A stretch of DNA of 64,000 nt from an uncultured Actinomycetes bacterium (GCA_903838295.1 CAILXX010000004.1:248001-312000); one strand, 5' to 3'. Shown: positions 14,438 through 61,967, counted from the first letter of the stretch. Numbers and translations are program-made. Notes: generated by a model not told the origin, from the sequence alone.

Positions 14438-14453
14438 TGAGTGCTAGCACTCA
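14438..14453. promoter_or_regulatory. 16-bp perfect palindrome upstream of the acetate transporter
   Basis: TGAGTGCTAGCACTCA is its own reverse complement, with no loop bases, which suits a dimeric DNA-binding protein better than an RNA terminator. It lies 14 bases after mmsA and about 134 before satP. The halves equal those of the CIRCE element but in fused, inside-out order, so HrcA is unlikely. The regulator is unknown. Confidence 0.4.
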
Positions 14454-14586: not shown

Positions 14587-15132
14587 ATGGCCGATTCAAA
14601 AATCGCTGATCCGCTCCCACTGGGACTGGCAGCTTTTGGTATCACATTGATCATGCTCAGTAGTTTGAATGCAGGACTATGGCACGGTGCTGGTGGCGGC
14701 GCTCTCATAGGCACCTCGATATTTCTAGGCGGAATAACACTATTTTTCGTTGGACTGCTTGAGTTCTTCCGTGGCAATACATTCACGGCCACTGTCTTCA
14801 CAGCATTTGGCGCTTTCTGGTCTTCTGCTTGGTATTGGCTTACCAACCCAGCCGTTCAGGCAAAGGGCTCCTTGGGAGTCTTTATCGGATGCTTCGCTAT
14901 CGCATCAATCGTGATGTGGGTTGTCGCGATGCGACTTGGTATCCACTTCAATCTTCTCTTTTTCTTGCTTATGGTGACCTTATTTGCCGAGGCATATGGC
15001 AATTGGGGTGGCGGTCATTCCGGCGCCGTGAAATTAGGCGGATGGACTGGCATCGTCACTTCGGTGATCGCAATTTATATTGCGGCAAAAATGCTTATCA
15101 ACGAGGCGTACGGTAAGGCGGTTCTTCCCTAA
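14587..15132 (+). CDS. satP: Acetate/succinate transporter, GPR1/FUN34/SatP (AceTr) family
   Basis: Inner-membrane channel-like carrier for acetate and succinate, 181 residues with six hydrophobic segments. The family signature near the N-terminus is present as ADPLPLGLAAFGITL (usually NPxPLGL). Glycine-rich helices and the late FAEAYGNWGGG segment also fit. The position after a gene pair that yields acetyl-CoA suggests a role in two-carbon metabolism, though a long leader separates them and regulation may differ. A strong two-way terminator follows. Confidence 0.9.
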   Translation: MADSKIADPLPLGLAAFGITLIMLSSLNAGLWHGAGGGALIGTSIFLGGITLFFVGLLEFFRGNTFTATVFTAFGAFWSSAWYWLTNPAVQAKGSLGVFIGCFAIASIVMWVVAMRLGIHFNLLFFLLMVTLFAEAYGNWGGGHSGAVKLGGWTGIVTSVIAIYIAAKMLINEAYGKAVLP

Positions 15133-39504: not shown

Positions 39505-40386
39505 ATGGCTCTTACTTCCATTGCTGCTTCTTGGCGCTCGCAAAATATGGCAACTCGACTTCTTCGCCTTTGGCTAGGTGGCACCTGGTTTTATGGGGGT
39601 TGGCAGAAGGCTTCGGATAACACTTTCTTAAATAAGGCCTCTACAAATTACATCGGTGCGCAATTGGCAGGTCTCGCACAACATTCACCTCTCAAGTTCG
39701 CCTTGCGTCACATGGTGGAGCATGCCTCACTTATCGGTGTCTCTGTGATGCTCAGCGAGTTCGCGATCGGGATTGCAGTACTTACTGGAATTGCGCTTCA
39801 GTTAGCGATTGTTGGCGGAGCGCTTGTCTCACTTATCTTATGGCTCTCGGTTACTTGGACGGTCTATCCATACTTCTTGGGGAGCGATTCCGCATATCTA
39901 GTCATGTGGATCGCACTTTTGTTTTTGGTTCGCCAACAAAATGTTGGGCGAGGTAAGAAGTCTGGTGTGATTCCTGACCTAACGGATCGCCGTGAATTTG
40001 TTCGCATAGTTGGCGTCGGGACCACTGCAATAATTGCTGCGCTCGCTGGCAGTCGATTTCAGAAGCCGGCACCTAAATCAAAGGCGGGCGCAATCCTTGT
40101 AAAACTTGCCTCCTTCCCAGTTGGATCAAATATGCAATTTACCGCCCCCGATGGAAATCCCGCATTCCTTTTCCGAACGAATGCTGGTGTTTTTGCTTAT
40201 TCCGCGATCTGCACACACCAAGGATGCACGCTTGGATACTCAGTCCTTGAACATACCCTTAACTGCCCATGTCATGGTGGCAAGTATGATCCTGCCAACG
40301 GAGGTAAAGTAATTGCTGGACCACCGCCAACTCCACTACCCAAATACAGGGTCGCCATCAAAGGCGATTCGATTGTGACGGTTTAA
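39505..40386 (+). CDS. DoxX/DoxD-like membrane domain fused to a Rieske [2Fe-2S] domain
   Basis: 293 residues in two parts. Residues about 15-145 form a four-helix DoxX/DoxD-like membrane domain (start LLRLWLGGTWFYGGWQKA). An internal twin-arginine motif (DRREFVRIVG, 161-170) and a further helix follow, then a Rieske domain with CTHQGC (236-241) and CPCHGG (254-259), each giving a Cys and a His cluster ligand. The Rieske part should face outward after Tat export. DoxD relates to the small subunit of thiosulfate:quinone oxidoreductase, so electron transfer with quinone is likely. ATG 39505 is probable; ATG 39547 is an alternative. Confidence 0.9.
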   Translation: MALTSIAASWRSQNMATRLLRLWLGGTWFYGGWQKASDNTFLNKASTNYIGAQLAGLAQHSPLKFALRHMVEHASLIGVSVMLSEFAIGIAVLTGIALQLAIVGGALVSLILWLSVTWTVYPYFLGSDSAYLVMWIALLFLVRQQNVGRGKKSGVIPDLTDRREFVRIVGVGTTAIIAALAGSRFQKPAPKSKAGAILVKLASFPVGSNMQFTAPDGNPAFLFRTNAGVFAYSAICTHQGCTLGYSVLEHTLNCPCHGGKYDPANGGKVIAGPPPTPLPKYRVAIKGDSIVTV

Positions 40387-58693: not shown

Positions 58694-59266
58694 ATGAATA
58701 AGAAAGTTACGGTTAATAGAAAGGTTATTGATCAGACTGCAAGCCTGATTGGGCTGCTCTTGGCGGTTGTATTACTCGTGGCAGGTGGATTGCTATCTTG
58801 GGGTTATAACTTTGCCAATGACCAGGTAAAAAGCCAACTTGTCGCACAAAAGATCTTCTTCCCAGCGGCAGGGACTGGTGGATTAACCAGCCTTCCGGCG
58901 GCAGATCAAAATCAAATGGCTAAATATGCAGGCGAACAACTTCTTACCGGCAAGCAAGCCCAGGTTTTTGCGGATCATTACATTGCCGTACATTTAAACA
59001 AAATTGGCGGAGGTCAGACCTATTCGCAAGCCAGCGCTGCATCTCAGGCAGCACCAACTGATACGGCCCTTGCAGGCACAGTACAAACATTGTTCCGCGG
59101 AGAAACCTTACGAGCTACTTTGCTTACCGCATATGCATTCTGGCAGTTAGGTCAAATTGCGATGTACTCCGCTTGGTTCACATATATCGGTGGCATTTTG
59201 TTCCTACTGCTTGCGTTATTGGGCTTTGCTCATGCTCGTAAAGTTGCAGGAGAGTTAGAGGTATAA
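58694..59266 (+). CDS. Membrane protein with a large external helical domain, unknown function
   Basis: 190 residues: a basic start, one helix (about 16-38), an exported region of about 100 residues (EQLLTGKQAQVFADHYIAVH, then GGQTYSQASAA) and two closing helices (about 143-183). The layout resembles widespread actinobacterial membrane proteins that databases sometimes mislabel as LigA ring-opening dioxygenase; I see no dioxygenase residues. It starts the plus-strand side of the cytochrome b region and ends before a terminator. The role is unknown. Confidence 0.8.
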   Translation: MNKKVTVNRKVIDQTASLIGLLLAVVLLVAGGLLSWGYNFANDQVKSQLVAQKIFFPAAGTGGLTSLPAADQNQMAKYAGEQLLTGKQAQVFADHYIAVHLNKIGGGQTYSQASAASQAAPTDTALAGTVQTLFRGETLRATLLTAYAFWQLGQIAMYSAWFTYIGGILFLLLALLGFAHARKVAGELEV

Positions 59267-59289
59267 CGAAAAACTACTGGTTTTGGCAC

Positions 59290-59327
59290 GGGCGGACCCT
59301 CATCACCGCGTCGATAAGGGTCCGCCC
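59290..59327 (+). terminator. Terminator after the 58694 gene
   Basis: GGGCGGACCCT (59290-59300) pairs perfectly with AGGGTCCGCCC (59317-59327) around a 16-base loop; ATTTTTAT follows shortly after at 59334. It also lies just past the end of the convergent 59346 gene and may serve both. Confidence 0.85.
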
Positions 59328-59345
59328 GGCGCCATTTTTATATTA

Positions 59346-59714
59346 TTAATGCTTAAGTGAGGAAGCCAATCCAATATTGATGACGGTGAGCCCCAATAAA
59401 AGCGTCCACGTTCCTCGAGTGATTGTTGGAGCCTTTGCATTCTTGAAGGCAAAGTAAAGGAGAACAATTACTACACCTAATTTGGCGACTACTGTTCCAT
59501 TGTTATAAGCCGGATAGAGGGCGGGGTCGGAATGGTGTTGCGAACTTCGAATTCCCACCATTGCAATTCCTGCAACTAGTGCACCGAGGCCAGCATGTGT
59601 CAAACCTTTAGGAACAACTTTGTTGGCCTTGCCACCTTGCTTTAAAAGCAAGACAACTATCGTCGCAACACAAATCAAATGTAGAACGAGAAAAATGTTT
59701 GCAAGAAGTTTCAT
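59346..59714 (-). CDS. Small four-helix membrane protein, unknown function
   Basis: 122 residues with about four hydrophobic segments (near 5-23, 38-57, 73-90 and 98-117) and a histidine pair in SSQHHSD between the second and third, which could bind heme or metal. It starts MKLLANIFLVLHLICVAT. I do not recognise the family. It follows the LuxR-type gene on the same strand. The 36-base gap between them is filled by an 11-base tandem repeat that adjoins its ribosome binding site. Confidence 0.75.
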   Translation of the reverse strand: MKLLANIFLVLHLICVATIVVLLLKQGGKANKVVPKGLTHAGLGALVAGIAMVGIRSSQHHSDPALYPAYNNGTVVAKLGVVIVLLYFAFKNAKAPTITRGTWTLLLGLTVINIGLASSLKH

Positions 59715-59724
59715 CAGATATCCC

Positions 59725-59756
59725 TTTTTCTATTCTTTTTCTATTCTTTTTTATTC
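59725..59756. repeat. Tandem 11-base repeat upstream of the 59346 gene
   Basis: Two perfect copies of TTTTTCTATTC (59725-59735, 59736-59746) and a degenerate third (59747-59756). On the minus strand this is a purine run next to the ribosome binding site of the 59346 gene and the end of the LuxR-type gene. Copy-number slippage could change spacing or expression. Confidence 0.8.
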
Positions 59757-60068
59757 TGTGTGGCGAGCACACATTTGTTTGCCATCTGGCCCAATGCTCA
59801 TGTGCTGACAGGCAACGTCGAGTGAATCAAATGCCGCGTCTCCAAAATGAGTTCGGTATGCCAATGCTAATAAGACTCGAACATTTGTGTCGCCGTTGGA
59901 TGTTATGCCAAATGCGCGTGCAGATCGCGAAACCGTGTTCTCAATAACCTTTTCGGTATGAGCAGTTTCTACCGCTATCGCTATGTTCGATTTACCTTTG
60001 CACAACAGATCAAGCACCAAGTGTTCGAAGGGTGTTAGGTCCCTTTGCATGATCGTGATATCTACCAT
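59751..60068 (-). CDS. LuxR-type helix-turn-helix protein without sensor domain
   Basis: 105 residues. The N-terminal 65 match a LuxR/GerE DNA-binding domain: LTPFEHLVLDLLCKGKSN, then ENTVSRSARAFGI as the recognition part. No receiver or ligand domain is attached; the remaining 40 residues hold two cysteines and three histidines (CQHMSIGPDGKQMCARH) that could sense a metal or redox state. It is divergent from the cytochrome b genes across 35 bases, so it probably controls them. ATG 60068 is followed by an in-frame ATG at 60050. Confidence 0.8.
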   Translation of the reverse strand: MVDITIMQRDLTPFEHLVLDLLCKGKSNIAIAVETAHTEKVIENTVSRSARAFGITSNGDTNVRVLLALAYRTHFGDAAFDSLDVACQHMSIGPDGKQMCARHTE

Positions 60069-60103
60069 TTTCTAATCACTTTCCACCGCGTCGGCCCATT
60101 GGG

Positions 60104-60385
60104 TTGTACCCCTTTGGTCTTGTCACTTTAGCAGGAGTGCTGGCACTCAGCCATCACTTCGTGGCGCTAGCCCTCAAGAAAAAGATCAAAAATCTCACAT
60201 GGGAGCTATATCTTCTTCACATGGGCATAATTTCGCATTTCATGAATCTGAAGGCCGTTTACATACATGTGGGCTTCTTCCAGATGTCGATAACAAATCT
60301 GATCACGATCCTGTGCATGCTCACAATTTTTGTGGCAGCGCTCGTAATCCCGTTTCCAGGAAACAGAAAGAAGGATAAGAAATGA
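60104..60385 (+). CDS. Small membrane protein encoded with cytochrome b
   Basis: 93 residues, mostly membrane: three hydrophobic segments (about 5-22, 33-50 and 58-84) and a basic tail (NRKKDKK). A histidine pair lies in ALSHHFVAL, and LHMGIISHF has two more, so heme binding is possible. TTG 60104 is the only ordinary start in the right place, without a good ribosome site; the open frame extends further back. It overlaps the cytochrome b start by four bases, which ties it to that complex. I do not recognise the family. Confidence 0.7.
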   Translation: MYPFGLVTLAGVLALSHHFVALALKKKIKNLTWELYLLHMGIISHFMNLKAVYIHVGFFQMSITNLITILCMLTIFVAALVIPFPGNRKKDKK

Positions 60386-61017
60386 GTGCCCAGCACGAAA
60401 AAGAGATGTGGACCGCAAAACTCCGTAAGGCTTGGCAGAAGAACCTTCCAATAGAAAAACTACTGCCAGATACTCAACCAGCGTACGTTGCCTCGTGGAT
60501 CTATCTCTTTGGGGTAGCTACTTTGTCTGCTCTTGGTGTCATTATTTTTTCTGGTCTTATTCTCGCCTTCGAAGGTCCTAGCTGGTACCACCTTTCATCC
60601 CCCGGGCACTTTGTTAATAGCCTTCACTTTTGGAGTGTCCAGTTGTTCTTTGTTTTTATGGTGATTCACCTCTGGGGAAAGTTCTGGATGGCTGCATGGC
60701 GCGGAAATCGAATGCTCACTTGGGTAACTGGCGGTATTGCTTTCGTCGCATCAATTGGGACGGCGTTTACTGGTTACTTAGTACAAACCAACTTTGATTC
60801 CCAGTGGATTTCTTACGAGGCAAAAGATGGATTTAATTCTGTGGGAATTGGCGCATGGTTCAACGTGACTAATCTTGGGCAACAGTTGCTTCTCCACGTC
60901 GCGTTTATGCCGTTAATTCTTGGAGTCATTACCGTAATACATGTGTTGATGGTTCGAGCAAAGGGAGTAGTGCCACCGATCGATGCATTCAATAAGGTTT
61001 TAGAGGAGAAAAAATGA
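60382..61017 (+). CDS. Cytochrome b, b6-type, N-terminal domain only
   Basis: 211 residues with four membrane helices and the two-heme set: His82 and His96 (LHFWSV, IHLWGK) in one helix pair and His172 and His187 (LLHVAF, VIHVLM) in the other. The spacings are 13 and 14 residues between histidines, the second being the b6 form. It lacks the C-terminal cytochrome b/subunit IV helices. In this window no cytochrome c, f or adjacent Rieske gene exists, although a DoxX-Rieske protein lies 20 kb away. Quinol-linked electron transfer is likely; the partner is not known. Confidence 0.93.
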   Translation: MSAQHEKEMWTAKLRKAWQKNLPIEKLLPDTQPAYVASWIYLFGVATLSALGVIIFSGLILAFEGPSWYHLSSPGHFVNSLHFWSVQLFFVFMVIHLWGKFWMAAWRGNRMLTWVTGGIAFVASIGTAFTGYLVQTNFDSQWISYEAKDGFNSVGIGAWFNVTNLGQQLLLHVAFMPLILGVITVIHVLMVRAKGVVPPIDAFNKVLEEKK

Positions 61018-61967
61018 GCACACGGCATGAATTGGAAAGTGCGCCATGGGCTGGCAGGACTCGACGTTATGACATTCTCAAAGAGGGAACTGCCGCACTC
61101 GTAATTATCACTGTGATTGTTGTAGCTCTATCGGCGTTCTTTGGGTCACCCGACGACAAGCAGATCACCTTCAAAGAATGGGCGATAAACGCGCCAGCAG
61201 ATTTTTACGCAACATCGGTTCAAGAGCTTGCTGGTACGAGTGGATCTGCCGGATACGGGGCTCCGTATAACACTGCTTCTTCTGGCGTCAATGTTGGGCC
61301 CTTTCACCTGGCTCAGATAATTGGCGTCAAGCATCCCGTCGACAACGTCAACGATTTTGTCATTACTCCATTAACCACCTTTAATAATTCTCCTGATGTC
61401 GCATCTGGGCTAAAACAATGGCAAGGGGCTGATTCCAAGACCCATCTCGCTTGGGCCACGGCGTATGACTCTGCTTTAGGCAAGGCAAACCAGGATGCAT
61501 CTAAAGTTCCTGCGGGCGACTATGGTCCTGTTCCGCAATTAGCTACTGGATTGTTGACGATGGCTAAGTCAGGTTCACTCGATGGCGTCCTTTTATCCCA
61601 AGGGAATTACTTCCAGAATGACAACACAAAGCAGACATTGTTCCTGGGCGATGGAAATTACTTTAATGACCAGAGCACTGCGGCTCATTTGCAAGGTGAC
61701 ACATGGGGCATGATGAACGAGACTGGTCGCTATCCAGGCCAGGCTTGGTTATGGCTTTATTCGTTCTGGTACCAGATCCCACCATTTAATAATGGTGACA
61801 GCCACCCATTTGGAGCAAACGCTGACGCCTACATCATGGTAATCATGGGGATTTTGAGCCTCAGTTTGGTCTGTATGCCATTAATCCCTGGGATCAAAGC
61901 GCTTCCTCGCAAGATTCCGGTTCATCGCTTAATCTGGCGCAATTACTATGAGGAAGAAAATCTCTAA
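61014..61967 (+). CDS. Cytochrome b partner with a large external domain, unknown family
   Basis: 317 residues. Helix one (about 26-45), an exported domain of about 220 residues with many Asn/Gly/Asp, and a last helix (about 271-292) before a basic cytoplasmic tail (PRKIPVHRLIWRNYYEE). The segment YPGQAWLWLYSFWYQIPPF looks like an amphipathic lumen-side element. No heme c (CxxCH) or iron-sulfur motif is present. It overlaps cytochrome b by four bases, so it is probably its stable partner in place of subunit IV. I do not recognise the domain. Confidence 0.85.
   Translation: MSTRHELESAPWAGRTRRYDILKEGTAALVIITVIVVALSAFFGSPDDKQITFKEWAINAPADFYATSVQELAGTSGSAGYGAPYNTASSGVNVGPFHLAQIIGVKHPVDNVNDFVITPLTTFNNSPDVASGLKQWQGADSKTHLAWATAYDSALGKANQDASKVPAGDYGPVPQLATGLLTMAKSGSLDGVLLSQGNYFQNDNTKQTLFLGDGNYFNDQSTAAHLQGDTWGMMNETGRYPGQAWLWLYSFWYQIPPFNNGDSHPFGANADAYIMVIMGILSLSLVCMPLIPGIKALPRKIPVHRLIWRNYYEEENL

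Follow-up and report, generated by a model that had tools for sequence, protein, structure and literature searches.

In the textbook quinol-oxidising cytochrome b complexes, the two-electron split depends on a Rieske protein. The actinobacterial bcc complex, composed of QcrA, QcrB and QcrC, contains a single-chain QcrB with the motif PDWY, a Rieske protein and a diheme cytochrome c. Another family, represented by the NCBIfam model NF040969 (ExtP), is the b-type cytochrome of selenite/tellurite reduction operons. Searches of the open literature turned up no description of a Rieske-free unit like the one analyzed here. The cytochrome part of this unit is of a known kind, while its Rieske-free b6/subunit IV arrangement and its external domain appear to be new.

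The window, meaning the whole stretch of 64,000 nucleotides that was analyzed, comes from an actinobacterial genome of 1.46 Mb (G000). Contigs related to it derive from uncultured freshwater actinobacteria, one of which is named Nanopelagicaceae. Three plus-strand genes lie in a row at 60221-61967. The first encodes a small membrane protein, the second a cytochrome b, and the third a protein of 317 residues, here called p317. As stated in the preliminary description of the locus, cytochrome b is coupled to the gene on either side, through ATGA overlaps at 60382-60385 (with the small subunit) and 61014-61017 (with p317). It is rather probable that the three products form a Rieske-free, quinone-linked complex of the b6/subunit IV type acting as an accessory, non-bifurcating electron conduit, for which we infer the subunit IV identity, the topology, the quinone sites, the direction of electron flow and the role.

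The middle gene (60382-61017, plus strand) encodes a b6-type diheme cytochrome b of 211 amino acids and four helices. This protein matches Pfam family PF13631 with 41.9 bits, above the cut-off of 27, in addition to cytochrome b6 in the PDB (E=5e-8) and the genome's own QcrB (96.7% in hhalign). Its heme-ligand pairs are located on helices B and D. The first, His82/His96 (codons 60625-60627 and 60667-60669, plus strand), has 13 residues between the ligands, and the second, His172/His187 (codons 60895-60897 and 60940-60942, plus strand), has 14. All four histidines are invariant in 44 homologs of the cytochrome, which together with the PF13631 match confirms the original assignment as a four-helix b6-type cytochrome b with a second spacing of 14. 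Across homologs, cytochrome b is more conserved than p317.

The gene preceding cytochrome b was originally described as encoding a 93-residue, three-helix protein from 60104, a reading that had to be revised. Homologs of this open reading frame (ORF), seen at 97 of 111 loci, match only its final stretch of about 54 residues, which contains one helix, and upstream of this part the homologs show in-frame stops or unrelated sequence. Furthermore, the ATG at 60221 is conserved in homologs, and the part of the 93-residue ORF before it overlaps a palindrome at 60135-60148. For these reasons, the small-subunit gene is taken to be 60221-60385 (plus strand), encoding 54 amino acids with one transmembrane helix. 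The C-terminus of this protein is probably cytoplasmic, and in other lineages the small subunit and cytochrome b form one fused protein, with the small subunit at the N-terminal end.

The palindrome GAGTGCTGGCACTC (60135-60148, no strand), a candidate operator, lies between the cytochrome operon and a divergent LuxR-like gene, and an alignment of this intergenic region from close relatives shows that it is conserved. Allowing at most one mismatch, the genome contains only two GAGTGC-N2-GCACTC palindromes, this one and another at 14439-14452 of the window, which precedes an acetate-transporter-like gene at 14587. The similarity of the two sites suggests a shared regulator. In close relatives, the LuxR-type HTH protein (59751-60068) is encoded divergently from the cytochrome operon. 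Its homologs at 22 loci share a conserved C-terminal CxH...CxxH pattern, and it is possibly a metal or redox sensor. The adjoining genes for the 190-residue, 122-residue and LuxR-like proteins noted at the outset are real conserved ORFs, but they are not constant partners of the cytochrome, being present at 9, 18 and 22 of 111 loci, respectively. An MpaB/latex-clearing-protein-like oxygenase (PF09995; 62428-63342) is kept just downstream in close relatives only.

Since 80 of the loci were fetched by cytochrome b alone, they provide an unbiased test of its association with p317. In all 77 loci with room for it, p317 adjoins cytochrome b; the other three (L079, L080, and L089) end just past the cytochrome gene. 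Gene fusions were counted only if the cytochrome motif was in the same frame of the ORF, and long "fused" ORFs in GC-rich loci (e.g., L103, L075, and L104) were rejected, their N-terminal parts being out-of-frame translation. The small subunit is fused to cytochrome b in Acidimicrobiaceae-type loci, such as L075, L081, L086, L099, and L108, and cytochrome b is fused to p317 in L070, L129, L136, and L152. The L136 fusion is not an assembly artefact, as the genome in question (G228) is a single contig. In L141 and L149, which are 65% identical and come from genomes of different families, all three parts form a single ORF. The small subunit, cytochrome b and p317 are therefore one unit, and the co-conservation across related genomes on which the preliminary description had staked its proposal is observed for all three proteins (77 of 77 loci for p317 and 97 of 111 for the small protein).

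In a distribution search covering the phylum Actinomycetota and one collection scan, the unit was found in 49 of 151 genomes of the order and 20 of 397 genomes in the phylum, spread over several families. Some genomes carry two copies (L199 and L200 in G242; L196 and L201 in G529), and in G529 one copy is a fused triple and the other is unfused. No plasmid copy of the unit was found. In L181 and L202, a narH-like gene is found within a few kb of a triple fusion, and in four loci of one family (L186, L190, L194, and L195) the unit is found beside the heme A synthesis genes ctaA-like and ctaB-like and a ResA-like thioredoxin gene. Although freshwater actinobacteria commonly carry the unit, it is missed by current annotation, in which p317 has no family name.

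Neither p317 alone (61014-61967, plus strand) nor its profile has a usable match in Pfam, NCBIfam or the sequences of the PDB, and Foldseek of p317 alone against PDB structures returned no match; a hit to purple acid phosphatase (E 0.76) was dismissed as chance. The Pfam model PF00032 does not recognize p317 and is absent even from the weak hits of all 51 members of the family. Likewise, hhalign against seven near-identical QcrB sequences gave nothing, and a diverse set of subunit IV sequences was required. Against 30 actinobacterial subunit IV sequences, the profile of the insert-free p317 core aligned with P=1.5e-4 over 91 columns, with helix E, the motif and helix F in register. None of 78 controls, comprising 39 other membrane families in forward and reversed orientation, scored as well (best control 0.025). 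Taken alone, the helix-E-like segment (YDILKE..., 61068-61148, plus strand) still matches its counterpart in subunit IV, helix E (P=1e-4). The helix-F-like C-terminal helix (61815-61889, plus strand; residues 270-286 in the AlphaFold2 model) is in register in the core alignment, and by itself matches subunit IV no better than the controls do.

Where other proteins have the Qo motif (PEWY, PDWY or APWY), p317 carries PGQAWLWL (61734-61757, plus strand). P241, G242, Q243, and W245 of this segment are invariant, such that all 51 homologs contain PGQxW rather than PEWY or a variant of it. GPWY occurs here only in L178 and L180, very distant homologs with about 33% identity over the pair, at the site where actinobacterial subunit IV has APWY. 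In Foldseek, an AlphaFold2 model of a triple fusion (pLDDT 78.8, pTM 0.76) retrieved full-length QcrB as the first hit (E=4e-6), with b6 alone ranking lower (5.7e-3). The superpositions were poor (TM mostly <0.4, rmsd near 20 for full-length cytochrome b) because of the p317 insertion. Taken with the adjacency and the fusions, the core alignment, the GPWY of the distant homologs and the model indicate that p317 is probably a diverged subunit IV, with helices E and F and about 185 extra residues in the outer loop. This makes it doubtful that the locus has no subunit IV, as was first thought. The initial proposal was to fall if the 317-residue protein strongly resembled a known subunit. No such strong match emerged, but a weak and reproducible one to subunit IV did.

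The insertion (61149-61697, plus strand) is predicted by AlphaFold2 to be an all-helical domain of about 185 residues with a confident core, in agreement with the large external domain initially described; it lies between the two helices of the protein. Foldseek found no match to it in the PDB. As read from the sequences, the N- and C-termini of p317 are basic, as is the C-terminus of the small protein, and this charge distribution fits an external insertion. Among the 51 homologs, no His or Cys of the domain is conserved; His225 is present in 30, and His304, present in 49, sits in the cytoplasmic tail. The suggestion that the domain provides an electron acceptor site is thus not supported. 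With no conserved His or Cys and no evident cofactor site, it is probably not itself an electron acceptor. A large external domain with invariant residues and no cofactor ligands could also be expected if the unit were a membrane anchor and electron conduit, in a role like that of NarI or FdnI, for an unlinked periplasmic oxidoreductase docking on this domain. The triple fusion near a narH-like gene is consistent with such a role, but no conserved neighbor encodes a periplasmic oxidoreductase, and we consider this explanation unlikely.

The gene neighborhoods agree with the initial observation that no Rieske, cytochrome c or cytochrome c1 gene is adjacent to the unit. Across the lineages examined, the gene unit encodes no Rieske protein, though one encoded elsewhere may serve it, and no c-type cytochrome is conserved in the neighborhoods examined. 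A search of the rest of the genome for qcrABC revealed a separate canonical cluster on contig 1, with ctaE-like, qcrC, qcrA and qcrB genes in a row and PDWY in QcrB. QcrB is present in 147 of 151 relatives within the order, and each of the 26 p317-bearing genomes tested elsewhere in the phylum encodes a further bc-type cytochrome b, which scores above the QcrB cut-off in 19 of them. Four Rieske domains are encoded in the genome, two of which belong neither to qcrA nor to soluble ferredoxin-like proteins. One is found in the window at 39505-40386, 20 kb from the cytochrome operon, in a single ORF of 293 amino acids with a DoxX-like membrane domain and a C-terminal Rieske domain. The other, on contig 16 (L122:903-1352), is a stand-alone Rieske protein of 150 amino acids with a twin-arginine-like signal, which is common in the order.

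With these two Rieske genes in the genome and a canonical bc complex nearly always present, the unit might form a full bifurcating bc-type complex by borrowing a Rieske protein and a cytochrome c encoded elsewhere, such as those of the canonical bcc or the product of one of the other Rieske genes. However, the presence of the free 150-residue protein does not track the cytochrome unit, leading to its rejection as a partner. In addition, the Qo motif is altered to PGQxW, and the insertion would fill the space of the Rieske head, making such borrowing decidedly improbable. The unit might instead be a non-catalytic factor that helps to assemble, sense or regulate the respiratory chain, with the hemes as redox sensor. 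This would suit its constant presence alongside a canonical bc complex and, in one family, its position close to ctaA, ctaB and a ResA-like gene, but the invariance of the full heme-ligand set and the stronger conservation of cytochrome b than of p317 make it very improbable.

In the Rieske-free, non-bifurcating conduit favored here, the products of 60221-61967 would assemble into one membrane complex containing the one-helix small subunit, the four-helix diheme cytochrome b and the diverged two-helix subunit IV, whose ef (outer) loop would carry the extra residues, with no Rieske protein or c-type cytochrome of its own. Menaquinol or a partner would exchange electrons at an outer pocket, the two hemes b would form the transmembrane electron path, and menaquinone or another partner would react at an inner pocket. 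The helical insertion may cap the outer (Qo-side) pocket, or dock a partner at the position of the Rieske head. As there is no Rieske centre, bifurcation would not be expected. The earlier proposal of a reduced or novel quinol oxidoreductase is supported as far as a novel or reduced complex is concerned, given the co-conservation, the fusions, the lack of adjacent Rieske and c-type genes and the separate bc1, while quinol oxidation is presumed from the family.

The complex would play an accessory part beside the canonical bcc:aa3 chain, perhaps when oxygen is low. Within the order, 31 of the 49 genomes with the unit encode cytochrome bd oxidase, compared with 16 of the 102 without it (Fisher 1e-8), and the association persists when labels are shuffled within genera (31 observed versus 24 expected, p=0.0013) and within genus and genome-size class (p=0.0055), though incompleteness of the metagenome-assembled genomes and habitat can still confound it. 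The link is not obligatory, as the window's own genome lacks cytochrome bd.

The chances are evenly balanced that the unit represents a class of cytochrome b complex not described before, quinone-linked, Rieske-free and non-bifurcating, present in several classes of Actinomycetota and bearing a new external fold over the outer quinone pocket. A conserved scaffold with no Rieske protein and a cofactor-free domain in its place would offer a direct test of the abilities of the cytochrome b core alone, and of the evolution of Rieske/cytochrome b complexes. Many actinobacteria possess a second, stripped-down relative of bc1 beside the normal respiratory bc1.

Among described systems, ExtP is the closest NCBIfam model to the cytochrome b, but the score of 46.4 bits is far below the equivalog cut-off of 290, and no multiheme cytochromes are found near the unit. 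The actinobacterial subunit IV with APWY (PF00032) resembles p317 in helix E and in the order of motif and helix F, a weak match that nevertheless exceeds all controls; unlike p317, it has no insertion, contains one helix more and matches PF00032. With the cytochrome b6f and b6c cores, the unit shares a split four-helix cytochrome b, 14 residues between the helix D ligands, a subunit IV-like protein encoded next and a one-helix small subunit. It differs from them in having no Rieske protein, no cytochrome f or c and no helix G, in a cytochrome b without the Cys for heme c(n), and in the roughly 185 residues inserted in the ef loop and the altered Qo motif. Finally, the actinobacterial bcc differs from the unit in its single-chain QcrB with PDWY and in the Rieske protein and diheme cytochrome c that the unit lacks, yet it provides the best structural neighbors of the fused model, with the same helix order, and the two co-exist in one genome.
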